NCBI GenBank assembly: GCA_024275515.1
Contig: JAJRYZ010000255.1
Location: 1 to 64,000 of the forward strand
Direction of reading: 5' to 3'
Source of the DNA: Spirochaetota bacterium
Lineage (GTDB): Bacteria; Spirochaetota; Spirochaetia; ARS1246
Length of the DNA stretch: 64,000 nt
This document shows, one piece after another, positions 1,993 to 46,250 of the stretch (the stretch's first letter is position 1; each line of letters starts with the position of its first letter). The notes under the pieces are model-generated. The model worked only from the letters and a program-made list of their open reading frames with translations. It was not told the origin of the DNA and made no database searches. The position numbers and the translations under genes were made by a program.

Positions 1993-2343
1993 CTAGAACA
2001 CAATGACCTTGTCGGCCCACAGACTCCATGCCGTCAACTCGTCCAACGTGCTCGGACGGGCGCCCTCCAGCAAATCGTCCTTCGTAATACCTCTGGCTTC
2101 CATACAGGAGCCGCAGACACCGATTTCCCCACCTTGGCGAACGACCGCTTTGCTCATGAGCTCGATGTTGTAGTAGCAGTGGGGGACATTCTGGCCCTTC
2201 CGGGCACACGCGGCTGCGTCTCCGATGAGGAATACTTTAACATCGGTTTCTTTTCGCTTAGCGAGCGAGCCGGCGAGCCTTAGTCCGTTGTAGCTTCTCT
2301 CGGTTCCGTACGGCGGATCGTTCAAAATCGTTAATACTTTCAT
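1993..2343 (-). CDS. DsrE/DsrF-like sulfur relay protein
   Basis: 116 aa, MKVLTILNDPPYGTERSYNGLRLA...VFLIGDAAACARKGQ...GVCGSCMEARG, typical DsrE fold features with conserved Cys. Confidence 0.85.
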   Translation of the reverse strand: MKVLTILNDPPYGTERSYNGLRLAGSLAKRKETDVKVFLIGDAAACARKGQNVPHCYYNIELMSKAVVRQGGEIGVCGSCMEARGITKDDLLEGARPSTLDELTAWSLWADKVIVF

Positions 2344-2359
2344 GTTTGTCCTTCCTTTT

Positions 2360-3079
2360 TCATCCGGCGACTTCGTTATTTCGACCGTGCCCGGTCTCTG
2401 CCTCGGGTGCGCCGCTCAACCGCCAATCGACGACGCCTGCCGTCAGGCGATACGCGGCGATTCCGTGTCTTTTGAGGATTCCCACGGCTTCCTTCGACAG
2501 GAGGCAGAACGGTCCGCGGCAGTACGCGACGACCTCTTTCCCTCTTTGCAGCGATGCTACTCGTGCCTCCAACTCTTTGAGAGGAAGCGACACCGCTCCC
2601 GGGAAATGACCCGCCTCGTATTCGTCCGTCGGCCGCACATCCACCAAGAGAATTTCATTCCTCTCTACCATTTCCTGCAGCTCCGACATACCCACGACGC
2701 GGAACTCTTCCTCCGCATCGAAGAACGACAGGACCGCGCACTTTATCTCTGCGATGCTTTCGTTACCGATATCGACGAGGTTTTTCCACACTCGCATTCC
2801 GGCATGAGTCGCCCGATAGAAGACAAAGCGGCCCTGTTTGCGCGCCACAACGAGTCTCGACGCTTTCAGTATCTGCAGGTGATGCGAAGTCGAAGCAACG
2901 CTCATCTTAAGCTCGCCCGAAAGCCGCTCGACGTTTTTCTCCGATTGGCAAAGCAAGTCGAGCAATTCAAGCCGCCTGGGATCGGCAACCGCACTTCCCA
3001 CCTTTGCAAGCTCGCCGTAGGTGAGCGCTTTGAAGGCAGGTCCGGACAGCGGGTCGGCGAGATAATTTCTGCCGCTCAC
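2360..3079 (-). CDS. ArsR-family HTH regulator fused to a rhodanese domain
   Basis: wHTH 'VADPRRLELLDLLCQSEKNVERLSGELKMSVASTSHHLQILK' plus rhodanese 'LLVDVRPTDEYEAGHFPGAVSLPLKEL...VVAYCRGPFCLLS'. Confidence 0.92.
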   Translation of the reverse strand: MSGRNYLADPLSGPAFKALTYGELAKVGSAVADPRRLELLDLLCQSEKNVERLSGELKMSVASTSHHLQILKASRLVVARKQGRFVFYRATHAGMRVWKNLVDIGNESIAEIKCAVLSFFDAEEEFRVVGMSELQEMVERNEILLVDVRPTDEYEAGHFPGAVSLPLKELEARVASLQRGKEVVAYCRGPFCLLSKEAVGILKRHGIAAYRLTAGVVDWRLSGAPEAETGHGRNNEVAG

Positions 3080-3247
3080 GAGTCCCTCCTCATCGCGACT
3101 GCCCTCCGAAGCGGAGCTACCGGAGGACTTACGCCTCGATCACGTTCCGCAATCACGGGATTCATGGTCGCGCTTCATATTACATTCAAACTAATGTAAG
3201 AATATCGAAGAATCAAGTAGTTTCTGAAAGAAGCCGTGTCGGTGCTT

Positions 3248-29562: not shown

Positions 29563-30060
29563 CTAAGACACGGCCGCGCGCTCGGCGCTCTCGAACGCAA
29601 CGATCTCACGCACACGCAGGACATTGAGCAATTCAGCTTCCGTCTGAATCACTCCCAAGCTGAACCTGCCCGCCGCATCGCCGAGGTGAGCCGGCGGCGG
29701 CTCGATGTCGGAGTGTTCGACCGTGATTATGTCTTCTACCCGGCTCACGAGCAGACCGATCATATCCGGGCCGGTCTCGTCATCCACCACGCCTTTTTCC
29801 AAGAACCGGCTCATCATGCGCGAGTTTCTCAACACGACGCACCTAGATTCCGAGCGTATCTTCTGATCGCCGACGCCGATCCTGACGCCCAGGTCGATTA
29901 CGGTGACTATCTGACCGCGCAGATTGAGTAACCCGCAGACATACTCCGGCGCCCCCGCGACGGGAACAATGTCGAGCTGGCGATTGATTTCATAGACAAG
30001 CAAAACATCGATCCCGAAGAGCATCTCACCGATCCTGAAAGTGACAAACTGACGCTTCAT
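29563..30060 (-). CDS. cheW: Chemotaxis coupling protein CheW
   Basis: FVTFRIGEMLFGIDVLLVYEINRQLDIVPVAGAPEYVCGLLNLRGQIVTVIDLGVRIG. Confidence 0.96.
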   Translation of the reverse strand: MKRQFVTFRIGEMLFGIDVLLVYEINRQLDIVPVAGAPEYVCGLLNLRGQIVTVIDLGVRIGVGDQKIRSESRCVVLRNSRMMSRFLEKGVVDDETGPDMIGLLVSRVEDIITVEHSDIEPPPAHLGDAAGRFSLGVIQTEAELLNVLRVREIVAFESAERAAVS

Positions 30061-30183: not shown

Positions 30184-32772
30184 TCATCGCGGAACCAACG
30201 CTTTCAGCGTCGTGCGGAGTCCCTCTTTGTCGAATTTCGCCTCGAAAGCGTCGACCCCGGCGTCCAGAATTCGCTTTCGATCGCTTTCGTGCACCATGGA
30301 AGTGAGTGCCACGACAGGAAGTCCCGTATGCTTCCGGGAAGAGCGCACCAACGCAGTCAACTCTAATCCGTCAAGTTTGGGCATCTGAATGTCCGTAACC
30401 AGCAGGTCGTAATCACTCGCGTTGAGCATGGACCACGCTTCTTCGCCGTCCTTCGCAACGTCCATTTCGCAGCCGATTTCCCTCAGGTAGGTGCTCACGA
30501 CTATGCGGAAGAACTCCGTATCCTCGGCAAGCAATACGCGCTTCCCGCGGAGCTCTTCGCCGGCGCCGGTTTCCTGGTACATCGTGGGTTCCGCCGCTTC
30601 CAGTAGGCCATACACCTCGAGACAGATGATGAGATCCCCTCCCGCAACTATGGATCCCAAGACGCCCGTACCCGTAATTGTCTCTCTGTCGAGCCGAGCG
30701 TCCGTCTCGAGAATATCCTCGACACGACTTGCGCAAATCCCGACCCGCTTGCTCACGAGTTTCGGCACGATGACGAAGAGTTCGTCGTCGTCTGATTCCG
30801 GACGCTTCACGGGAAGATAATCGTGAAGCCTGATAAGGCGCATCGTGGCGTCTTCGTATTTCAGGTACTCCTTGTCATCTATCCATTCGACGGCGCCTCG
30901 GTCGACTCTCTCTATCCGCTTTACCATCGACAGGTTGATCGCAAAGTGCTCGGAAGTGCCGCTTCGGAAGAGCAGCAGGGACTGCTTCTCCCTTATGCCG
31001 TCTCCGTCTTTGCCTTCAGATAGTGCCGATTCGATTCTCTCCAGGTCTCCTCCGAAACGCAGGCGAGCGGTAGTGGCCATGCCGGCCGCATCCAGGATCA
31101 TAGCGACGCGACCATCTCCCATAATCGTGGTGCCGGCGTAAAAGGGGCATTTTTTTAGATACGCCGGAAGAGGCTTAACGACGATCTCTTCGTTGTCTCT
31201 GAGAGTTTCGACGACAAGACCGTATGGGTTGGCGCCGACACGCAGGACGATTATGTTCAACGCGTTACGAAGATTGCGTCGCCGATCCGAAGCGTCGCGC
31301 CGTCGGTCGTCTTCGGCCTGTTTTCGTTTGGATTCGGACTCGCAGGATGCGTTCGCCGCCCGGTCGCTCGTTTCCCGCGAAATCGCGCCGGAGTCGAGCT
31401 CGGTAGCCCGTCGGTCCAGAATGCCTGTCCGCCGTTCGGCATGTCGCGTGCCCGTCGCGTCGACGTACGTGCTTTCGATTCCGAGCGCATCGTTCAAGCG
31501 GATGAGAGGAAGCACTTTTTCGCGCAACCTCATCACCGGCCGTCCATGGATGCTCTCAATTCGGCGCGGTACATCCCGCGCGCGAATGCGCACCAGCTCC
31601 TCGATGTCGACCTGAGGGATCGCGAACACCCGATCTTCGTTCTCAAGGATCAACGCCGGCATGACGGCCAGCGTGAGAGGCAGTTTGAGCGTGACGCGAG
31701 TCCCCTGCCCGAGTTTCGATTCGATATCCACCGTTCCGCCTATTTTCTCGATGTTGGAACGTACCACGTCCATTCCCACACCACGCCCGGAAACGTCGCT
31801 TACCTGCTCCGCCGTTGAAAAACCCGGCGCAAGTATCAGCCGTAGCGCCTCGCGGTCCGACATCTGGTCTGCGTCATTTGGGGAGATCATGTCACGTTCG
31901 ATCGCCTTTTGCTTGATTCTTTCGGGATCGATACCGCCGCCGTCGTCGACTATCTCGATGACGACCTGCCCGCCTTCGTGCCGCGCACTCAGTTCGACGT
32001 GTCCCTGGGCCGCTTTTCCCGCGGCCTTTCGTTCCTCGGGAGTTTCAATGCCATGATCGGCGCAATTGCGAATGAGATGCGTGAGCGGATCCCCGAGCGC
32101 TTCTATGATCGACTTGTCCAGCTCCACGTTTTCGCCTTGTATGACGAGCTCAATCTCCTTTCCCAGTTTTCGGCTCAAGTCACGGATCAGGCGGGGGAAT
32201 TTCGAGAAGACGGTTCCGACCAACTGCATGCGGGTTCCCATGACACCGCCTTGAAGTTCACTCGTAACACCGTCAATGTCGAGCATAGCGCCGTTCAATA
32301 GCGGCAAATCGGAAAAGGTGCCGTCCAACAACTGGCGTAGCGCGGCGTTGATGTTGTTGAACTCGCGTTCGACAAGCTCCGCGAACGCATCCGCGCCTCC
32401 ATTGCCCGACGTGCGCGCCGCGGCGTCTAGACTTTCCCGGGAGGAAGCCAGTTGCTTCCTCAGCCGGTTCAATTCGGGGCTGCGCGCCATTCCGGAGGAC
32501 AGTTTTTCCATGAGCGACCGCTTAATGCGGTTGCGGCTCAGCACCAACTCTCCCGTGAGGTTCATCAGGTTATCCAGCAGGTCGATCCGAACACGAAGCG
32601 ATTGGGAACTTGAGGACGCTCCCGTGTCTTTCTCTCGGCGCGGGGGATCCGTAACCGGCTCGCTCGATCGCGCGTCTCGGGTCGTCTCCTCCGGCGTCGA
32701 CTCGCCGGCGGCCGTTTGGGAAGGCAGGAAGGCCACCAGCGGCGCCAGCTTTTCCGCGATCGCTTCTCTCAA
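30184..32772 (-). CDS. cheA: CheA histidine kinase, P3-P4-P5 plus second CheW-like and REC domains (P1 is upstream of an in-frame UGA)
   Basis: VRIDLLDNLMNLTGELVLSRNRI (P3), HLIRNCADHGIETPEER (N box), DVSGRGVGMDVVRSNIEKIGG (G box), C-terminal REC 'VLLAEDTEFFRIVV...LLVTDIQMPKLDG'. Only a TTG 3 nt after the UGA is available as start. Confidence 0.92.
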   Translation of the reverse strand: MREAIAEKLAPLVAFLPSQTAAGESTPEETTRDARSSEPVTDPPRREKDTGASSSSQSLRVRIDLLDNLMNLTGELVLSRNRIKRSLMEKLSSGMARSPELNRLRKQLASSRESLDAAARTSGNGGADAFAELVEREFNNINAALRQLLDGTFSDLPLLNGAMLDIDGVTSELQGGVMGTRMQLVGTVFSKFPRLIRDLSRKLGKEIELVIQGENVELDKSIIEALGDPLTHLIRNCADHGIETPEERKAAGKAAQGHVELSARHEGGQVVIEIVDDGGGIDPERIKQKAIERDMISPNDADQMSDREALRLILAPGFSTAEQVSDVSGRGVGMDVVRSNIEKIGGTVDIESKLGQGTRVTLKLPLTLAVMPALILENEDRVFAIPQVDIEELVRIRARDVPRRIESIHGRPVMRLREKVLPLIRLNDALGIESTYVDATGTRHAERRTGILDRRATELDSGAISRETSDRAANASCESESKRKQAEDDRRRDASDRRRNLRNALNIIVLRVGANPYGLVVETLRDNEEIVVKPLPAYLKKCPFYAGTTIMGDGRVAMILDAAGMATTARLRFGGDLERIESALSEGKDGDGIREKQSLLLFRSGTSEHFAINLSMVKRIERVDRGAVEWIDDKEYLKYEDATMRLIRLHDYLPVKRPESDDDELFVIVPKLVSKRVGICASRVEDILETDARLDRETITGTGVLGSIVAGGDLIICLEVYGLLEAAEPTMYQETGAGEELRGKRVLLAEDTEFFRIVVSTYLREIGCEMDVAKDGEEAWSMLNASDYDLLVTDIQMPKLDGLELTALVRSSRKHTGLPVVALTSMVHESDRKRILDAGVDAFEAKFDKEGLRTTLKALVPR

Positions 32773-32775
32773 GAA

Positions 32776-33420
32776 TCAGTCGAGATCGGTCACTTTGACG
32801 ATGGCCAGGTAATCGGCGAGAACGTCCTCCGCGCCGGCTTTTCCTTCCGCGGTTACTTGTTCACATATGGTTCGCAGCAATTCGCCGAGCCGTTCGGCAA
32901 GCTCGGCGGGAAGCTCGTCGAAATCGGCGGACTGCAGAAGACTCATAGCCTCTATAAACTCGGGAGTCCCCTGGTTCCGTGAATGAGCCGCCGCCTCACC
33001 GCTCTTTTCGTCCGACTTGAGAGAATCGGGCCGTTCGGACGGGAGTATCTCCGACAACCGGGCAAGCTCTTCATCGATGGGGATGGTTTCGGAGGCATGC
33101 ACATCATCGATCAACACTCGAAGCTTATCGGCGCCTGCAAGCAGAACGTCCACGATTTCGGCCCGCACCGACAGCTTGCCGTCGCGTATCAGGCCCATGA
33201 TGTTCTCCATTGAATGGGCCAACTCGGTGATATGGGTCATCGAAAAGAAACCGAATCCCCCTTTCATGCTGTGGACGGCGCGGAAAATCCGATTCACCGC
33301 CTCCGGGTCCACGACATCGGGATGAGCCTCCAGCGCCATGAGCTCCGGTTCAATCGCCTCGAGATGCTCCTTCGATTCCGTGACCAGCTCATCGAGCAGG
33401 TCTTCATCAACATCGGCCAT
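32776..33420 (-). CDS. CheA P1 (Hpt) domain, in the same frame as and immediately upstream of the rest of cheA
   Basis: AVNRIFRAVHSMKGGFGFFSMTHITELAHSMENIM Hpt motif; ends ...VKVTDLD-TGA at 32776-32778. Confidence 0.9.
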   Translation of the reverse strand: MADVDEDLLDELVTESKEHLEAIEPELMALEAHPDVVDPEAVNRIFRAVHSMKGGFGFFSMTHITELAHSMENIMGLIRDGKLSVRAEIVDVLLAGADKLRVLIDDVHASETIPIDEELARLSEILPSERPDSLKSDEKSGEAAAHSRNQGTPEFIEAMSLLQSADFDELPAELAERLGELLRTICEQVTAEGKAGAEDVLADYLAIVKVTDLD

Positions 33421-33452: not shown

Positions 33453-33833
33453 TCAGAACTCATCATCGATATCAAGTACCTCCATGAGCCGGGTCGTGAT
33501 ATCCTCGGGCGTGAACGGCTTGGTCACGTAATGTCTGGCGCCGAGCCGGATGGCCTTAAGCACGGACTCCTTCTCCGATTCGGCGCTGACCATGATTACC
33601 GGAATATGCTGGAAGTTCGGGTTCGCCTTGATAATCTCGAGGCATTCGATCCCGTCCATCTCAGGCATGGTGATATCCAGGGTAATGGCGGCTATGTGAG
33701 CTGCATCCGTCTCCAGAGCCTCCAGCGCCTCGCGCCCGTCCTTGGCTTCGATTATTTCATACCCCATTATTTGCGCAGCGCCGGATATCATCCGTCTCAT
33801 TACGGTCGAGTCGTCTACAACGAGTAGCTTCAT
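33453..33833 (-). CDS. Single-domain response regulator (CheY-like)
   Basis: LLVVDDSTVMRRMISGAA, ITLDITMPEMDGIECL, GARHYVTKPFTPEDI. Confidence 0.95.
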   Translation of the reverse strand: MKLLVVDDSTVMRRMISGAAQIMGYEIIEAKDGREALEALETDAAHIAAITLDITMPEMDGIECLEIIKANPNFQHIPVIMVSAESEKESVLKAIRLGARHYVTKPFTPEDITTRLMEVLDIDDEF

Positions 33834-34698
33834 TGTCGGCTCCTTGGTATTGAGTTTTTGACCTGGTAGTAGACGCCCGTCGTTCCCGTTCTCATGTCAA
33901 ACGCGGTGCTGTAGCCGGCCAACGACTCCGACGCACCGAGGAAAAAGTAGCCCCCGGGGTAAAGCGCTTTGGATATTCGGTCGAACAGGTCGCGCTTGAA
34001 CTCATCGGAGAAATAAATGGCGGTGTTTCGACAGAGAATAATGTCGAAACTTCCGAGCTGAGCAAAAGAGTTCTGGAGGTTGAATTTCTTCAATCTCACC
34101 ATCCGCTTGACCTCCGGAGCGATTTCCACACCCGCCCGTTCTGCACAAAGAACGCGTCCCGATACTCCGGCGGAAGTCCGCGGCTCATTGCAATGGATTC
34201 GTAGCGCCCAAGCTTGGCAAGGCGCAGGGCGCTCGTTGAAATGTCCGATGCGAGTATGTCGCAGCTCAGTTTTGCGATGTCCGGGTTCGAACGTGCGGCG
34301 TCTATGAAGGTCATCGCGATGGAGTACGGCTCCTGCCCCGTCGAGCAGGCTGCCGACCAGATTTTTATGGATGTGCGGCCGTTCTCGCGCGCCCGGTTTG
34401 CGTATTCGGGAAGCAGGATCTCCTTCAGGATGGTGAAGGGGTGACTGTCGCGAAACCACAGTGTCTCGTTCGTGGACATCAGATCGACGACCTTGTCGCG
34501 CAGATCGTCGTCTCCACCGTATTTGACTTTGTTGTAGAATTCGGAGAACGATTCGCACCCCGTTTCCAGAACCAGGGAACCCAGACGCGTCTCTATGAGA
34601 TATGCCTTATTTTCCGCAACCAGGATACCGCTCATCTCCGCCAACAGCTTGCGAAACGCCGAGAACTCGCGTGCACTTATGCTGAGCACCGCCATCAA
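33830..34698 (-). pseudogene. cheR: CheR methyltransferase interrupted by an apparent 1-nt frameshift
   Basis: N-terminal frame 34096-34698 (IKIWSAACSTGQEPYSIAMTF) continues in another frame to 33830 (IAPEVKRMVRLKKFNLQNSF...FDIILCRNTAIYFSDEFKRDLFDRISKALYPGGYFFLGASESL). Shift at the AAA run at 34123-34125. Confidence 0.88.
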
Positions 34699-35312
34699 TC
34701 GGTTCCCGACGGCTCCGTACCGCGTCGGTCCGCGCGGGGCGACAGAAGATCAATGACCTCCGCGATCCGACCTTTCGAATCGTCGATCTCGCGAAGGATC
34801 GACACGGCCTCGTCGATTTTCCGCCTCAACTCAAAAACACGCGCCTCGAGCACCCGTACTTCGTGTTCGGCATGACGTTCAACGACATCCTTCGCTTCAC
34901 GAACATCGCTCAGCTCCGCGTCACGCGACAGATAATCACAAACATTACTTATCTTTTCCAGCAGAAGTGTACCGTCCACCGGCTTCTCGATGTAATCGCG
35001 CGCTCCCATGCGCATCGCCTCCACGGCGGAGCGTACGGAATTACTCGCGGTAATGACGATAACCTCCAGCTCGGGACGTTCCGCCTTGCATCGGCGCAGC
35101 ACATCGAGACCCGATATTCCCGGCAGCATCAAATCCGTGACCAGCAGATCGTACGCGCCCGACGAAAGCCGCTCCAGACCTTCCTCCCCCGTTTCAACCG
35201 CGTCGACGATACACTCACCGAAACCGTATTCATCAAGTCCCTCTGCAAGAATACCCCTGAACATCTCAACCATTATCGGATCGTCTTCTATGTGTAGTAT
35301 TCTCATTGTCAT
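34695..35312 (-). CDS. Response regulator with C-terminal coiled coil
   Basis: MRILHIEDDPIMVEMFRGIL, YDLLVTDLMLPGISGLDVL, GARDYIEKPV. ATGA overlap with cheB stop. Confidence 0.88.
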   Translation of the reverse strand: MTMRILHIEDDPIMVEMFRGILAEGLDEYGFGECIVDAVETGEEGLERLSSGAYDLLVTDLMLPGISGLDVLRRCKAERPELEVIVITASNSVRSAVEAMRMGARDYIEKPVDGTLLLEKISNVCDYLSRDAELSDVREAKDVVERHAEHEVRVLEARVFELRRKIDEAVSILREIDDSKGRIAEVIDLLSPRADRRGTEPSGTD

Positions 35313-36379
35313 CCTGCTCCCTTCCGGGCGAGGGCTACGATACGTTCCGCGATTTTGTCCAGGTCCACTGACTCGTCGCTCAATCCCGCGGCATCGACGG
35401 CTTGCGGCATGCCGTACACGACGCATGTTGTCTCGGACTGCGTGATACAATAGCATCCTTTCCGCTTCAGCGCCTCTACGCCTTTCTTCCCGTCCGAACC
35501 CATTCCCGTCATTATCGCGGCAAGAACTCCTTCATCGCCGTAACATGCGGCGAGTGCGCGGAAAAGCACGTCGACCGCCGGCCGACAACTGTTTTCCTTG
35601 GGACCGTCGTTGACGCCGACCGTAACGCCGTTCGCAGTCTTGCGTACAACCATGTGCCGACTGCCCGGAGCGATCAGCGCAAGACCGGGTCGAAGAATAT
35701 CTCCCTCTTTGCCCTCCCGAACGACAAGTTCGGACTTCCTGTTCAAATCGGCGGCCAACGCCTTCGTAAACGGCGCGGGCATATGCTGCACCACGACGAC
35801 GGGCAGCGGAAAACTACGCGGCAGGGCGGGAATTACTCGAGCCAGCGCGTTCGGACCTCCGGTAGAAATACCGATACCCAGCACGCCAAACCGAGTGGGA
35901 ACAGGCGCGATGCGACGTTGCGCGGGCCTTTCGTCCGTTCTTCCCACCGCGCCGCGCATGCGTCGGCGAAGCCAAACGGCTTTGAGTACATCCTGCAAAG
36001 CGGTCTTCAGCTCCGTTGCGTTCTCCGCCGCGTCCGGGCCAATCGGCTTGCGGACAAACTCGAAAGCCCCGGCATTCATGGCTTTTATCGTCGTTGACGC
36101 GGCGTGTTCCGAGACTCCGCTTACCATCACGACGTCAACATCGGGGAAATCGCGCTTGATCCGGCCGAGCGTCTCGAGCCCGCCGATGCCCGGCATCTCG
36201 ACGTCCAGCAATACCAGATCAAACCTCGATGCGGCGAGTTTTTTAAGCGCAATTTCCCCCGTGGGAGCCCTCTCCCCTACCGTGGCGAAGGGGAGAGCAT
36301 CGACGGCGTCGGAAACCAAGGCGCGATAAGTTATCGTGTCGTCGACGACGAGTGCGACGAGTTGTTCGGTCATTCGCAT
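35309..36379 (-). CDS. cheB: CheB methylesterase (REC + CheB)
   Basis: REC N-terminus LVVDDTITYRALVSDAV; GIGISTGGPNALARVIPALP, VVVQHMPAPFTKALAADLN, AIMTGMGSDGKKGVEALK. Confidence 0.96.
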   Translation of the reverse strand: MRMTEQLVALVVDDTITYRALVSDAVDALPFATVGERAPTGEIALKKLAASRFDLVLLDVEMPGIGGLETLGRIKRDFPDVDVVMVSGVSEHAASTTIKAMNAGAFEFVRKPIGPDAAENATELKTALQDVLKAVWLRRRMRGAVGRTDERPAQRRIAPVPTRFGVLGIGISTGGPNALARVIPALPRSFPLPVVVVQHMPAPFTKALAADLNRKSELVVREGKEGDILRPGLALIAPGSRHMVVRKTANGVTVGVNDGPKENSCRPAVDVLFRALAACYGDEGVLAAIMTGMGSDGKKGVEALKRKGCYCITQSETTCVVYGMPQAVDAAGLSDESVDLDKIAERIVALARKGAG

Positions 36380-36429: not shown

Positions 36430-38814
36430 TCAACTCGTTTTGAATTGCCCGACCAGCTCGCTCAGGCGCGCGGCCATTTCCGCCAGATCCGCGCTGCCGG
36501 CGTTCGTCTGGTCCGCGCCGGACTTGACCACTTCCGACGACAACCTCAAACTCTGAATGTTCTCGGACACTTCGGCTGCGCCGGTCGACGCTTCCTGGAT
36601 GTTTCGTGAAATGTCGGTGGCGGCCTGCGATGCGCTCCCGACGCTGTGAGCGAGTTCATTGGTGGTGGCAGACTGTTCCTCGACCGCGCCGGCGATCGTT
36701 TGCATGACTCCACTGAGCTGGTCGATCGTTTCCGAAATAACGCCGGTGGCGACTACGGCTTCTCCCGTCTTACCCTGCATTTGGCCGATGAGCCGCCCGA
36801 TCTCTTCGGTCGCCTGGGCCGTCTGCTTCGCCAGTTCTTTTACCTCGTTTGCCACTACGGCGAAGCCCTTCCCGGCTTCCCCCGCGCCCGCGGCCTCGAT
36901 GGCGGCGTTGAGAGCCAACAGGTTTGTTTGGTCGGCGATGTCGCTGATAGTCTCGAGAACCTTGCCTATTTCCTCCGCGGATGTGTTAAGCGCCTCCATG
37001 GTCTTACCGGCCGCGTTCGATTTCGCGTTGGCGTCCATCGACATCCGCGAGCCGTCCGCGCAATTCCTGGCTACCTCCGAAAGCGACGAGCTCATCTGCT
37101 CGATCGCCGCGGCGGCCGTGGTAACCGTCGTCGACATTTCCTCGGCGGCCGCGGCGATGTTCGTGAGATTTGACGACAGTTCCTCAACGGCGGCCGCGGC
37201 GCCGGTAGAATGCATGTTCATCTCATCGGCCGAGGAAGCCGATTCTCCCGCGTTTGCCGTTAGCTCCTCGCTCGTCGAAGCCAGGACGGAGGTGTGAGTC
37301 GCCACCTCGCGGATGATGCCCTGCAGCTTTTCCATGAAAAAGTTGAAATAGCGGGCCAATTCGCCGAGTTCGTCCGTTCTCTTCAGGTCGATGCGCGCGG
37401 TAAGATCGCCTTCGCCTTCGCTGATATCTTTCAACATCGCGACGGTCCTGTTGAGTGGAGCGGATATTCCGCGCGACACGAAATAAACCAACACGATAAC
37501 GATAAGAGTCACGGCGACCGCGATGGAGGCGAGGGAAATGAGTGATGCACGTGAAGACGCTCGCAGCGACGCGACCTCGTCGAGCAAGTCCGCCGACAGT
37601 TTGTCTTCGACTTCCTTCATCAGGTCTATTTTGCGGGTGATCGTATCGAACCAAAACGACACATCGACGCCGAAATTGCCGTTTACCAACGAGTCGGCCA
37701 ACTCCGCCAAGGCGGCGAGGGCGGGACCGTCGTCGACTTTCACTATCGCGTCGGTTTCCGATATCGTTTTATGTTCGGTGTCGTACGCCTCGACAACCTT
37801 TGCTAGTCCGTCGTTGTATTCGGAGAGCGTGCTACGTATCGTCGCGTACCATTCGATCTCCCTATCACTCTCGGCCAACGACTCAAGCTCATCGAGCAAT
37901 CGGTTCGCCCGCTCGTAATTCTTTTGGAAACGGTCGCGGTACTTCGTGTCGTTTCGCAGCACATAGTTCTTGAAGTTGTGAATAGCGCCGCCGTAGCCGA
38001 TTTCGCTCATGAGCTTTGCGACTATCGTCGCTTTACCGGTAAGCTCTCCTTTCTTGTAGACGATGTCCCGGATCCTCTGTACTTCCTCTACGGCCGGATC
38101 CGAGAGTTTCCGTTCGAAAAAAGCGACATCGTCGGGCGAAGCTATCCTCCTGAAAGCGGACAGATAGGTTTCTTGAGCATTAACCAGAGACACGACCCGT
38201 TGCAGCGCGCCGGGTTCGAACCGATTCGCGGTGAGGATTCTGCTTACCACCGCCCTTTCGATTCCGGCCCGCTCTTTGCTTTGTAGAAAACTGTCGTAAG
38301 CGGTGGCGGTTCTGGACAGTTCGCTGACGTCGCTGAATCGCGACACCCCCGATACGATGTCCAGCAGGGAAGTGTTGTGTTCGGTGTACAAGCGCAACGC
38401 CTCGGCGGCCGGAATCGACAGACCGTCGACTTTGGCCCGGTAGTCGTCGATCGATTCCATATTCTTCACCGCGACCGCCAATTCCTCCTCGAACTCCCGA
38501 CCGAATGCGGAGGCGTCGAAGGAGTCCAGATACTCCAACAGAGTCGCCCGACCGGCGTCGGTAGCTCTTCGCTGCGCGGCCAACTCCTCGCCGAAAATAG
38601 CCCCGCCGCTCGTCATAAAGACGTAGGATGCACCGCGCTCTTTCTGCGTCTCGTGAACATACCCGCCGACGTGACTCACCAGTTGCACAAGGCGATTCAG
38701 ATCGTTCGTGTGGACGAAATCGCTCCAGGCGCCGTTCACCGAAATACCGGTAAGAACGAGCGCGAAAATAAGAGGAATCCCCGTAATCAACATCAGCCGA
38801 AACCGTATCGACAT
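36430..38814 (-). CDS. Methyl-accepting chemotaxis protein with NIT-type (nitrate/nitrite-sensing-like) periplasmic domain
   Basis: Periplasmic '[16 protein letters not shown]...' helical domain, HAMP, signalling hairpin '[48 protein letters not shown]'. Met at 38814. Confidence 0.93.
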
Positions 38815-39121
38815 ATTCACGTTCCTACTACTTTGCACAGCGACGTGTGGGCTTCTTCGGAATGTCTCCGTGAAAACTACAGAGATCACCCGCTTTTTTC
38901 AAGGCAACGTCGTCAATTGCGAGTAATTATCGATTTCGAAAACGAAATAGAGAACTTTTGATCGACAATTCAAAATCCGACGTGACGGATTTTAACGCCC
39001 TCACTTCCGATAGATTGCTTGACAGCAGGACGAGCATTCCGCATGTTTTATGTGTGTGTCGCGCGGCAGGTACAAGATGTTCGCAACGACTCACGTTCCG
39101 TATGAACGGTAGAGAGGAAAG

Positions 39122-40246
39122 ATGGATATCCCCGTGGGATTCTCGGAAAGCAAAAACATTCTGGTCGTGGACGATACCAAGGCGAACCTGGACATACTTG
39201 TCGAAGCGTTGGGCGACACATACAACGTAAGCGTCGCCTTGAACGGGAAAACGGCTCTCGAGAGTATTGACGACGTGCTGCCGGACCTGATTCTGCTCGA
39301 CATCATGATGCCCGGGATGGACGGTTTCGCGGTATGCCAAGCGTTGAAAAGCGATGTTCGCACCCAAGATATCCCCATCATCTTCCTTTCGGCCATGGAC
39401 CAGATCGACGCGAAAACACGCGGGTTTAGGGCCGGCGCGGTCGACTACATTACTAAACCGTTTGAGATTCTGGAAATCAGGGCGAGAGTGAGAAACCATC
39501 TGCTTATCGGGGAAGCGAAGATGTATCTTACGCGTCAGAACGAAATACTCGAACGGAAGGTGAAAGAAAGGACGAACGAGCTTCAGGTGACCCAGGACGT
39601 CACCATTCGGAGTCTCGCGTCCCTCGCCGAGACCAGAGATAACGAAACGGGACGCCACATACAAAGGACCCAGTATTATGTCCGGCTGCTTTCCGAACAG
39701 CTGATCAGCAAGCGTCAATATAGCGATCTGTTGACGCCGAGGGCGCTTGAGCTGTTGCCGAAGTCCGCACCGCTCCACGACGTGGGTAAGGTCGGAGTTC
39801 CCGACAGCATTCTTCTGAAACCCGGGAAACTCACCGACGAAGAGTTTGAGATTATGAAAACACACACAAAGCTCGGCAGGAACGCGTTTCTGCAGGCGGA
39901 AGCCGATCTCGGATCAAACTCCTTTCTCAAACACGCCAAGGAGTTCGCGTATACGCATCATGAAAAATGGGACGGAACCGGCTACCCGGAGGGCAGGTCC
40001 GGCTTGCAGATCCCGCTCGAAGGACGACTCATGGCCTTGGCCGACGTCTATGATGCGCTCGTCTCCAGGAGAGTCTACAAACCCCCCTTCACCCACTCCG
40101 AAGCGGTTTCTACCATACTAAACGACAGTGGTACGCATTTCGATCCCGTCGTCGTCGCCGCCTTCGAAATCGTGCAAGAGGATTTCCGGCGGTTCGCGTT
40201 GAAACACGCGGACTCCGAAGAGGAAAAAGAGACCCTCAAGGCATGA
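39122..40246 (+). CDS. Response regulator with HD-GYP domain (putative c-di-GMP phosphodiesterase)
   Basis: REC '[14 protein letters not shown]...[14 protein letters not shown]'; '[15 protein letters not shown]', '[34 protein letters not shown]', '[16 protein letters not shown]'. Confidence 0.95.
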
Positions 40247-43200
40247 CGTCCGGGTCGAGCTTTGCAAGGAGTTCTTGAAGAACTTTCGTTGCGCCGTCGA
40301 ACCGGTAGCTGAGAATCAGCTTGTTAAGTTCGTCGGTCCTTTGAGCATACTCCTCCGGAACCGAATACCGCCCCATCTCCTCGAGAATCGGCGCGCACAT
40401 TTTAGGCCGCCGCTTTTTCACTTCGGGCTCGAGACGTCTGAGGAACCGAAGAAAATCTTCGGGCGACAGCGCGTCTCGATCCTCTCCCCCGGACTGCCTG
40501 ACTTCCGTTCTTTCGCGTATACCCGCGTCGTCGATAGCCGCGATCAGTCGTTTCAAGGCGTCTTCGTATTTCGCAAGCAAAATCGGGTCGCCGTCGCCAC
40601 GCTGCAGCGCCGAATCCAGGGCCGTAACCGCCGTGTTAAGGTCCTTCGCTCCGAGATTCCCCGAGATGCCCTTAATCGTGTGCGTCAGCTTCTCCGCCGC
40701 GGAGGGGTCTCCGTGCCCGAGAAGCTTCCGAATCTCCTCGGCGGAACCCGCGAAGTCCTCGCGAAAGCTACCCAGCAGTTGTACGTAGAGTTGTCGATTG
40801 CCGTTTACCTTCTCGAGCCCTTCGGCCAAGTCGACGCCGCGGACCAAAGGGAGCACATCTTCATCGGCGTTCGGCGAAGCTCCGAATCCGTCGAATCCTT
40901 CGGGCAGGTCGCGCTCACCCGGCTTCAACCACCGGACAAGGACGTTCCACAACTCCTGAGAATCTATCGGCTTCGATACATAGTCGTTCATCCCGGCTTC
41001 TTTTACTCGGCGGCGCACTCCGGTCATCGCGTCGGCGGTCATTGCTACTATCGGCAAGCTCGCGTACCGAGGATCATCGCGAATTATCCTTGTCGCCTCA
41101 AACCCATCCATGACCGGCATCTGCAGATCCATCAGCACGAGCTCGTACCGATTCTCCTCGCGAAGCCGTTCGATCGCCTCCTTGCCGTTGCTCGCCACCT
41201 CCACGAAAAACCCCTCTTGCTTCAGCGTTTCGGCGGCGACTTGTTGATTGATCTCGTTGTCTTCCACCAGGAGAAGCACGGCGCCCCTTACGCTCTCGAT
41301 TCCCTTCGGCGTCCTCTCCTCCCGCTCGATGGTCGTTTCAGAATCGGCGCGTCTTCCGAAGGCTTTGAGAATCGCAGCAAACAACTTCTTCGGGGAAACA
41401 GGTTTGATCAGACACGCATCTATACCGTGGCTCTGCTTTGCGGCCGCCCTTCCTCTGCTTCCCGTTGTAATGATGATCCTGGGAGCTTTCTCATTCTCAA
41501 GCTCCGATCGTATTCTCTTCGCTATTTCAAGGCCGTTCATATCGGCCATACTGTCGTCAATCAGCGCGAGGTCGTAATTCCTCTCCGCCGACGTTTCCGC
41601 ATCGATGATTCTGCGATAGGCAAGCTCACCCGACGACGCGGAATCCACCTCGAAGGAGAGGGCCTCCAGATATGAGGTCAGCACGTCGAGCGAGGTCCTG
41701 TTGTCGTCCGCAACGAGCACTCTCAAGGCTCTCAGATCATCCGGAATCTTGACCGGTTCCTCGTCCGGGACGACGCCGAACGTTGCCGTGAAGTAGAAAG
41801 TGCTTCCCTTCCCGTATTCGCTCTCGACTCCGATCTCTCCCCGCATCATCTCGGCAAGCCGCTTGCAGATCGACAACCCCAAACCCGTGCCGCCGTACTT
41901 TCTCGTCGTCGACGAATCCGCCTGATTGAAGGAAAGAAAAAGCCTGTCCTGCTGCTCCGCGGTCAGTCCGATTCCGGTGTCCCGCACTTCGAAACGAACG
42001 ACCACCTCTCCGTCGGTTCTCGATACCGGGCTCGCCGAAACTACGATCTCCCCCTTATCGGTGAACTTGACCGCGTTGTTTGCCAGATTGAGCAGGACTT
42101 GACCAAGCCTCAATGGATCGCCGACCAGGAGACAAGGCGCCGCGGCCGCTCGGCTGAATACCAACTCAACGCCCTTTTCCCGCGCATCGTCTTCGATCAG
42201 ACTGAATAGGTTGTCCATCACATCATCAAGACTGAAAGTCGTCGATTCCAAAGCGAGCTTCCCCGCTTCGATTTTTGAAAAATCCAGAATATCGTTGATG
42301 ATCGTCAGCAGGTCTTTGGCCGACCGTTTTATCTTCTCTACATAATCTCGCTGTTTCGGGTCCAGATCGGTCTGCGCCAGAAGACTGTTCAATCCAATGA
42401 TCGCGTTCATCGGTGTACGAATCTCATGGCTCATGTTCGCCAGAAAACGGCTCTTTGCCGTCGTCGCGGCCTCCGCCATGTTCTTCGCTTCCAGGAGTTG
42501 TCGCTCCATCTGCTTCTGTTCGGTAATGTCGATCAACGTACCGGTCATTTGCACCGCCCGGTCGTTTTCGTCGCGGAACGGCACATTAGCTCTCGCCACG
42601 ATCCACCTGATCGTGCCGTCGGGCTGCAGGACCGGGTAGGTCGCGCGGAAAGAGTCGTATTTCCCCGACACGGTGCCGTAGTAGCGCTCGAGAGTCTCGT
42701 TGATGATCTGTTTGTATTCGGCGTTTCCGACTCCCGTTCGCTTCATCACGGTAAGCCAGTCGCTGATTCTGTAGGAATAATCATCGGATTGACTCGGAGG
42801 GATACCCATGAGCTTGGCGGCAATATCCAGAGCGTGCAAGGTGTCTTCTTCGGAGAAATCGATCCACCAGGCGCCCACGGCCGCCGATTCCAGAGACCCG
42901 TGGACCAGCTGATTCATCAACGACAAAGCCTCTTCGGCCTTCTTGCGCGCCGTTATGTCCTCCTTCAAACCGACGAAGTGAGTTATTCTGCCGGTTTCAT
43001 CCTTCAAAGGCGCGATTGCCACGGACTCCCAGTAGATCTCTCCCTGCTTGCTCTTGTTTGCGATCTCTCCGTGCCAGTGTTTTCCGGCGGCTATCGTCTC
43101 CCACAGCTCGGCGAAGAACTCCCTCGGCTGGATTCCCGCGTTCAGTATGCGGGGATTCTCGCCGATCGCCTCTTCCGCCGAGTAGCCGGTGACTTTCTCG

Positions 43201-45626
43201 AACTTCCGGTTGACATACTCGATGCGACCCTCCGGGTCCGTGATAACGATTGAGATGGGACTTTGTTCGACGGTCGCGGACAGTTTTCTGATTTCCTCGT
43301 CCGCTTTCTTCCGTCGCGTGATGTCGCGAACCGAGGCCATTATCAAATAGCCTTCCGGAGTTTCATGAGAACTGAAGCTGATTTCCGCCGGAAAAACATC
43401 GCCGTTTTTGCGTTTGACGTCGACCTCGAGACCGTCGCGCGATTTCCGTGAGCTCAGGAAACCCGGAAGATCATTCCGCATGAACTCAAGCCGCTCCCAC
43501 AACTTTTCGGGAAAGAGAATCGCGGCTCGCTCGCCGATCAGCTCGTTACGCGTATACCCGAACATTCGCTCCGTCGCGCTGTTTATCAGTACAATGGTGT
43601 AGTTCTTCTCATCGACGATGACCATTCCATCGGGCGACGCCTCCAGGAGCGCTTGAAAGCGTTTTTCCAGGGCCTTTCGCTCGGTGACATCCATGAAGGT
43701 GACCACCGCTCCCTCCAACCTTCCGTCTTTCCGAATCGGAGTGCTCGTGCAGGCGACCGAAAAAGGAGTTCGGTCCTTGCGCCAAAACGTCTCGTCCGCA
43801 ACAAATCGCGTCCCGTTGCCCAAATGTGCGGCGCACAACGGGCAAGTTTCGTCGGGATAATCGGAACCGTCGGCGCGGGAGTGATGGACCATTTCGTGGA
43901 AGTTCTTTCCGATGAGCTCATCTCTCGCGTACCCCAGCATCTTCTCCGTCGCGGGATTGACGAACGTCACCTCGCCGGTTGTGTTCATGCCGAGAATCCC
44001 CTCTCCCGCCGATTCCAACACAAGCCGTGATCGCGCCTCTTCTTCCTCCAGGCGCCTCTGTTTTTCTTCCAGTTCCGCGGTCCGCTCCGCCACCTCTTTT
44101 TCGAGATAGTCCTTTACTCCGCGAAGCGTGGTATTCGCGCGTTCCCCGAGGATGAGAACGAGAAAAGCGGCGCCGATAGTCAGGAGCAGGGCCGCTCCGA
44201 GAACAATCAGGACGGTAATCCGCAACGTGAAAACGGACGACAGCGCCTCCTCCACGTCGATTTCCGAAATAATCCCAATTCCAAGATTCGCCGCCCAGAC
44301 GCCGGCGCCGAACACAGGGACGCCGCGATAGTCCCGGTACCCGTTCATGTTCGTCTCGACGGCCGGACGGGAGTCGACGATAGAACGCAATACCGCTTCC
44401 GCCATTCGAGTCGGCGGTTGCTCGGTCCGCGACAGGAGCGGGCGCTTCCCTTTGACGAGATTCACTCCCGGATCCCGAACTTCAACATTCAGGGCCGAGA
44501 CTTGCGTCTCTCCGAGCAGACCAATATCGCGGAGCTGTTCCACGAAACGACTCTCCGAAAGAAGCACTCCGTCGCGGCTCATGGCGTAGACGTCGCCGGT
44601 GATACTGCTCGTCGAGCTCTGCAGCGCATCGGTAAACTCGTTCGACGGATCGACCCGCAACGCGACGAGAGCCTCGATAATTCCATCCGACCGCCGGACC
44701 GGGCCAAGCAAGAACATCGTGGGATCGGCCCGTCCCTGTCCGGCCCTCGGTGCTTCAGTAAGCGAAACATCGGACGCTATCGGCGGAACGAACACCGCCT
44801 CGCCACGAAACGCTCGGTCGATGAGATCCGGGCGCTGTCTCGCGATGAGATTCAGAGTGCCGAGATTCTTATCGCGACTCGAACCGATACTGATGCTTTC
44901 CGTATTGATGATAAAAAACCCTATGTTCGGGTAGATATCCTGTCGTTCGCTAAAGAAAAGCCTCATTTCGGCGAGTACGGGGGACGCATGCAGGCTCGGC
45001 AAAACCGGTTTCACCGTCATCAGACGCTCGACAAGAGCGGTGAACTCCGAGTCTCGCCCCAAATCTTCAAGATAGGATATCTTCTGGTCGATCCTCCGGG
45101 TCAGCCTTTCGCGGGCGTTCTGCAGGGCAATCTCGAGATTCGCTTCCGAAGCCGCGACGACTTCTCTCCTGTAGCGTTCGACGAGAAGGATTCCCAGAAC
45201 GGATAGAAGGATCGTAATGCTAAACAACCCGACGATGATGATCCAACGGAACTGTTTAGACCCGAAAGCAAAGGACAAGTTCTTTTTTTTTGCGGTCCGA
45301 TAGAGCATCCAGAAACCCAACCACAAAAGCAACAAAAGCAGCAAGAGATATACGACGATTCTGTCCGCCGCGAGCCAGCGACCCGTCGGCGACGCCTCGA
45401 AGTGAGCGCCGGTTCCGGACGCTCCCGACAACGATTCCGGTTTCAACTCGCCCGCAGGCCGCGACGACATCGACGCCGTTGCCGGTTCTGCGTCGTCGGC
45501 GAGTCCGAGCGACCGGGCGCCGCCGTGCGGGGCCGCTGCTATTCGTTCGTTCGGCTCTGCCTGCAAACCTATCGACGAACCGATGATAACGATACCACAC
45601 AAGAAGATCGTTCGGCGTGCTTTCAT
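40236..45626 (-). CDS. Giant hybrid sensor kinase: cache-like, about 4 PAS, HisKA/HATPase, 2 REC, Hpt
   Basis: 1796 aa; [33 protein letters not shown], two REC domains ([26 protein letters not shown]), C-terminal [14 protein letters not shown]. Confidence 0.95.
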
Positions 45627-45794
45627 TCGCTCTCCCGATTTGTTATTCTTCCATATTACCCCGTCTTTGATAACAGTGCTCCGCGTGGATGACGGGCATT
45701 GTTTTCACACCGGGGAAGGTGGTGCGGCGCCGACGGAGGGGCGAATGACTAGATTGCGAAACCTATTGCTCTTGGCCGGCTGCGAAGGACCGTC

Positions 45795-46250
45795 ATGCGG
45801 CGGATCACTTCCGGGGGACGTTCTCACGTGATCGCGGAAAAGAGCTTCGGAGAGAGCGGCGATTACGCGGATGACGCTCGATCGTTTGAGAAGATTCCCG
45901 GTATGGATTTCCAGGACGGCCTTCGTCGGTTGCGGGGCAATCGCACGCTTTATTTCACGCTATTAGGCAAATTGGCCGTCGATGTGGAGAAACGTCTTGC
46001 AGCGATGCGTCGGAAGCTCGCCGAGCAGGATTTTGCCGATATCACGTATCACGCGCATACGATAAAAGGCGCCGCCGCAAATCTTGGCGCAACGGCCGTC
46101 AGCGAGTTCGCCCTGAAGCTGGAAACGGAATTGAAACAAGGGAACGGCGCCGATGTTGAAAACCTGTTGAGCAGCCTTGAGAAAAGCCATGCGGCCATGG
46201 TTGAATGCCTACGCTCACTGGGAATAATAACGGATTCGCCGAGCCCGTGA
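45795..46250 (+). CDS. Stand-alone Hpt-domain protein
   Basis: ITYHAHTIKGAAANLGATAVSEFALKLE. Start uncertain; GTG at 45828 possible. Confidence 0.75.
   Translation: MRRITSGGRSHVIAEKSFGESGDYADDARSFEKIPGMDFQDGLRRLRGNRTLYFTLLGKLAVDVEKRLAAMRRKLAEQDFADITYHAHTIKGAAANLGATAVSEFALKLETELKQGNGADVENLLSSLEKSHAAMVECLRSLGIITDSPSP

Follow-up and report, generated by a model that had tools for sequence, protein, structure and literature searches.

An in-frame stop codon in a spirochaete cheA gene: a probable sequence error or recent knock-out mutation, with little to suggest a natural kinase split

A working split form of the histidine kinase CheA is known from Rhodobacter sphaeroides, where P1 and the catalytic part are divided between two separate proteins, CheA3 and CheA4, both of which keep a P5 domain for the array (PMC3591291). 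A passage of PMC10653900 that cites Garzon and Parkinson (1996) reports, for a laboratory construct with engineered expression and no natural termination-reinitiation, that the P1 domain of E. coli CheA, once liberated, can still support signalling together with a P1-less kinase. Closer to the locus described here are the CheA proteins of its own taxonomic class, among which relatives were sought in 395 genomes. Seven of these genomes encode a CheA (L043-L049) of full P1-to-REC architecture, with P1, P3, P4, tandem CheW-like repeats and a C-terminal receiver in a single open frame of 995-1079 codons containing no stop; one of the seven (L047) is truncated by the end of its contig and has masked bases in the linker. 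The main CheA of the class (e.g. L010-L038, L050) is also uninterrupted, and lacks both the tandem CheW repeats and the receiver domain.

The window analysed here, a stretch of 64,000 nucleotides from a spirochaete draft genome, carries a cheA of the P1-to-REC kind whose frame is broken once (Table 1). The gene opens at an ATG on the minus strand behind a good Shine-Dalgarno sequence (AGAGAGGAG), and its frame runs for 1,078 codons with a sole stop, a TGA at codon 215, where the strand reads AAA GTG ACC GAT CTC GAC TGA TTC TTG AGA. An earlier note had reported this codon, and its sequence, coordinates and frame are all correct. The frame is common to the P1 open reading frame (32776-33420, 214 aa) and to the one that follows (30184-32772, 862 aa from a TTG), giving the domain order P1, linker, UGA, P3, P4, CheW-type repeats and REC. 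Pfam finds only Hpt in the 214-codon 5' part (residues 7-101, E 2.8e-15), with the phospho-accepting histidine at residue 50, in AVHSMKGG, in an alignment column that is invariant. In the 3' part it finds H-kinase_dim, HATPase_c, three CheW stretches and Response_reg, so that what the note had called the rest of the kinase does continue in the same frame from P3 on, but is longer than described, with extra CheW-like repeats and a C-terminal receiver. All catalytic motifs are retained along with the phospho-histidine; the Hpt domain, P3 dimerisation domain, HATPase P4 and CheW-like P5 expected of a CheA are all present, and they do not stand on one open frame.

In a dicodon coding model, for which 729 kb of this genome served as training set, the cheA frame scores +0.59 over codons 151-214 and +0.33 over codons 216-240, where it is the best of the six frames (the others reach at most +0.03); the score drops to -0.09 across a low-complexity linker (codons 240-282) and rises again in P3. 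Since the frame is still coding-like past the TGA, the stop interrupts a coding frame and does not mark a gene boundary.

Table 1. Features of the chemosensory cluster in the window, and in-frame stops inside domain or family matches elsewhere in the assembly (G000; contig, with locus and position)
Feature	Position	Strand	Basis or remark
cheA 5' part: P1 (Hpt) and ~85 residues of linker	32779..33420	-	Pfam, AlphaFold2, invariant His
In-frame TGA of cheA, in poorly conserved P1-P3 linker	32776..32778	-	sequence; absent from 7 orthologues
TTG one codon past TGA, possible but unsupported restart	32770..32772	-	no Shine-Dalgarno, upstream AGTGACCGATCTCGACTGATTC
GTG 14 codons past TGA, in frame	32734..32736	-	weak purine run GGAAAAG ~12 nt upstream
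cheA 3' part: P3, P4 (HATPase), CheW-type repeats, C-terminal receiver	30184..32772	-	Pfam
cheR 5' part: CheR_N and CheR model positions 1-105	34096..34698	-	domain match
cheR 3' part, different frame: CheR model positions 107-193	33830..34130	-	frame switch near 34115-34131
CheY-like receiver protein between cheR and cheA, intact	33453..33833	-	ORF list
CheW, intact	29563..30060	-	ORF; homologues in syntenic clusters
CheB, intact	35309..36379	-	ORF; homologues in syntenic clusters
Methyl-accepting chemotaxis protein (MCP), intact	36430..38889	-	ORF; homologues in syntenic clusters
FeoB, TAA inside domain	C100 (L083 6559)		
Band 7/flotillin protein, TGA inside domain	C130 (L086 2360)		
SecD, TAA inside family match	C150 (L088 12285)		sole secD copy
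GatA, TAG inside family match	C245 (L114 12696)		sole gatA copy
TIM-barrel isomerase (AP_endonuc_2), TAA inside domain	C285 (L121 10774)		
Oligopeptide ABC ATPase (oligo_HPY), TAG inside domain	C329 (L130 3706)		

The window protein and its seven architecture-matched relatives share 39-44% identity over P4-REC, and the stop aligns to the P1-P3 region, where the linker upstream of it retains 13-26 identical among 91 aligned residues. The relatives differ in having a P2-like segment between P1 and P3, absent from the window protein, and a P3 about 64 residues shorter. Gene order (cheA-MCP-cheW-cheB-cheR) is broadly conserved in five of the seven, one of which has cheW ahead of the MCP gene. The earlier note had asked whether an alignment of orthologues would reveal a conserved UGA, and it does not: none of the seven same-class genomes has a stop at this site. 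No orthologue was found in the sister genus (G001), so no very close relative enters the comparison, and a wide contig scan returned a single full-span CheA relative (L039), which has no receiver domain and is too distant to align at the site. Judged by these alignments, the stop is private to this genome or its assembly. The architecture of the protein is itself mixed: its P3 region (32250-32610, minus strand) has the long hairpin of the main CheA of the class, with which it shares about 40% identity over P3-P5, joined to a tandem CheW-REC tail like that of the seven matched orthologues.

AlphaFold2 models the P1 piece confidently for residues 1-128, ending well before the stop, and gives a pLDDT below 50 around the stop itself. 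Because the stop follows a complete P1 and falls in the least conserved linker, both halves could fold, and its position alone is no argument against a split kinase. Under such a scheme the UGA would release a free P1 with its linker (214 residues) from the chemoreceptor array, translation of P3-REC would begin anew at the TTG or GTG through termination-reinitiation, and P1 would be phosphorylated in trans, much as the liberated P1 of E. coli can signal. If true, this would offer an easy way for a fused histidine kinase to become a split one. The R. sphaeroides pair, invoked in the earlier note as a precedent, is a weak parallel: P1 and the catalytic part would lie on different polypeptides here too if the stop is used, but as one frame with a stop in it, and the P1 piece, matching Hpt only, has no P5 tether of the kind that CheA3 has. 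The restart is also poorly equipped. The TTG that the note had named as the only nearby start indeed has no Shine-Dalgarno sequence, while cheA and cheY have clear ones; a GTG 14 codons past the stop had been overlooked and is preceded by a weak purine run, and the first in-frame ATG does lie within P3, as had been stated (32565-32563). With the stop absent from all seven matched relatives and the neighbouring cheR also broken, we consider termination-reinitiation of this kind unlikely, and a natural single-operon split that frees P1 from the array equally so. A conserved split was rejected, since none of the matched relatives shows it.

Readthrough of the UGA, by selenocysteine insertion or leaky termination, would yield a full-length CheA and would fit the coding-like frame past the stop, but we hold it to be highly improbable. 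Three segments that surround or follow the UGA (49, 79 and 76 nt) are no more stably folded than shuffled sequences (z +1.05, -0.24 and +1.26) and thus offer no SECIS-like hairpin; no tRNA-Sec scores above the family cut-off, the best candidates being ordinary tRNAs (ARAGORN), and the best match to SelB is EF-Tu. Recoding of the UGA as in a selenoprotein was accordingly rejected. UGA is moreover the commonest normal stop of this genome, ending 271 of 567 long open reading frames, and a U after the UGA is not known to make termination leaky. Other genes of the assembly are interrupted by TAA and TAG, and the presence of all three stop codons among the lesions argues against a UGA-specific mechanism.

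The cheA stop is not the only lesion of the cluster. Two genes upstream, at a distance of 1.3 kb, cheR is frameshifted: CheR model positions 1-105 match the open reading frame at 34096-34698 and positions 107-193 that at 33830-34558, in different frames, and the coding signal switches frame near 34131, while in syntenic relatives the two halves are adjacent and in register. Both lesions thus lie within 1.35 kb. The parts of the window that were tested showed no other lesion, and ten more open reading frames there that had looked suspicious proved intact or ordinary. These observations speak for a second reading, in which the UGA and the cheR frameshift would be real recent mutations in a cluster that is being lost, the cell relying on other CheAs; CheA-like proteins are indeed encoded on contigs C217, C192 and C165. 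Decay would have to be very recent, because no more than two lesions can be seen and neither the phospho-histidine nor any catalytic motif has been lost. We regard such a loss as a realistic possibility, though not the likelier one; it ranks close behind an error in the consensus sequence.

Elsewhere in the window, a hybrid kinase of 1,822 residues (PAS repeats, HisKA, HATPase, two receivers and Hpt; 40239-45704, minus strand) adjoins a stand-alone Hpt protein on the opposite strand (45753-46247, plus strand). At 1996-3139 (minus strand) an ArsR-type HTH is fused to a rhodanese domain and overlaps a DsrE-family gene, with which it looks like a sulfur-related pair.

The assembly carries false or disabling stops elsewhere. 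It is a draft metagenome-assembled genome of 329 contigs (94.8% complete, 6.5% contamination), and stretches covering about 17% of it (729 kb) were scanned for stops that interrupt a frame with coding signal on both sides and have neither ATG nor GTG within 12 codons. The scan returned 16 sites (17 after retraining), six of which are spanned by a Pfam or NCBIfam match (Table 1), a count that rests on this single coding-potential scan. When read through, GatA and SecD still score above curated cut-offs, and neither has a second copy in the genome. Similar lesions are therefore present in genes that the cell cannot lose, a TAG in gatA and a TAA in secD, a pattern that indicates errors in the assembled sequence; by the same token, the lesions of the chemosensory cluster need no decay to explain them. 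In two complete relatives (800 kb) the scan found seven sites, none spanning a Pfam domain, an outcome with P of about 0.001 at the rate of the draft genome. A fragmented draft used as a further control (G118, 191 kb) gave three sites, one of which resembles an interrupted PAS domain, by eye only.

Sensitivity on simulated stops was 0.29, and the cheA stop itself is missed owing to the low score of the 60 codons that follow it. With this sensitivity, the six cases in about 17% of the genome lead to a rough estimate of about 34 stops in each Mb of coding DNA (about 1e-3 substitutions per base), at which about two stops are expected in the 64-kb window. Other searches were less informative. A first, looser junction scan for stops was noisy, as was a same-strand frame-switch scan, not relied on, that gave 18 start-less switches in 729 kb versus 3 in 400 kb of a relative (G027). 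A tblastn search with proteins from two complete relatives was dominated by shadow open reading frames on the antisense strand, the only stop judged real being that of the ABC ATPase. The 92 ABC_tran matches include a further in-frame TAG and an apparently frameshifted pair, the latter on contig C328 (11805-12243), where the domain extends across two frames (model positions 3-113 and 107-137), apparently another assembly frameshift.

Taken together, these results make a sequence error or a recent knock-out mutation the most likely origin of the cheA stop, ahead of a naturally split kinase. The earlier note had left the choice open between nonsense mutation, sequencing error, stop-codon readthrough and a genuinely split kinase. 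The first two are supported by the uninterrupted orthologues, the stops in the sole gatA and secD and the frameshifted cheR, while readthrough and a genuine split find no positive support. Between the two that remain, we lean towards an error in the draft consensus, a preference drawn from the state of the assembly: the same P1-REC architecture is uninterrupted in seven same-class genomes, and six other genes of the assembly, two of them single-copy, carry domain-spanning stops. Against it, the contig, at 72.9 kb, is one of the longer ones, and such contigs usually have reasonable coverage; moreover, two lesions within one cluster fit real decay somewhat better, unless sequence quality is locally poor. 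If the consensus is indeed in error, the gene would be a normal single-chain cheA, broken once by a lesion private to the assembly, and the living cell would have a sense codon at the TGA site and produce a single CheA chain of about 1,078 residues.

As a finding in itself the cheA stop is of little importance, and its use is as a warning about this draft genome. With an estimated one disabling stop in roughly every 30 kb of coding DNA, a lone stop or frameshift here should not be taken as a sign of gene splitting, recoding or pseudogene formation unless the reads or a second genome bear it out.
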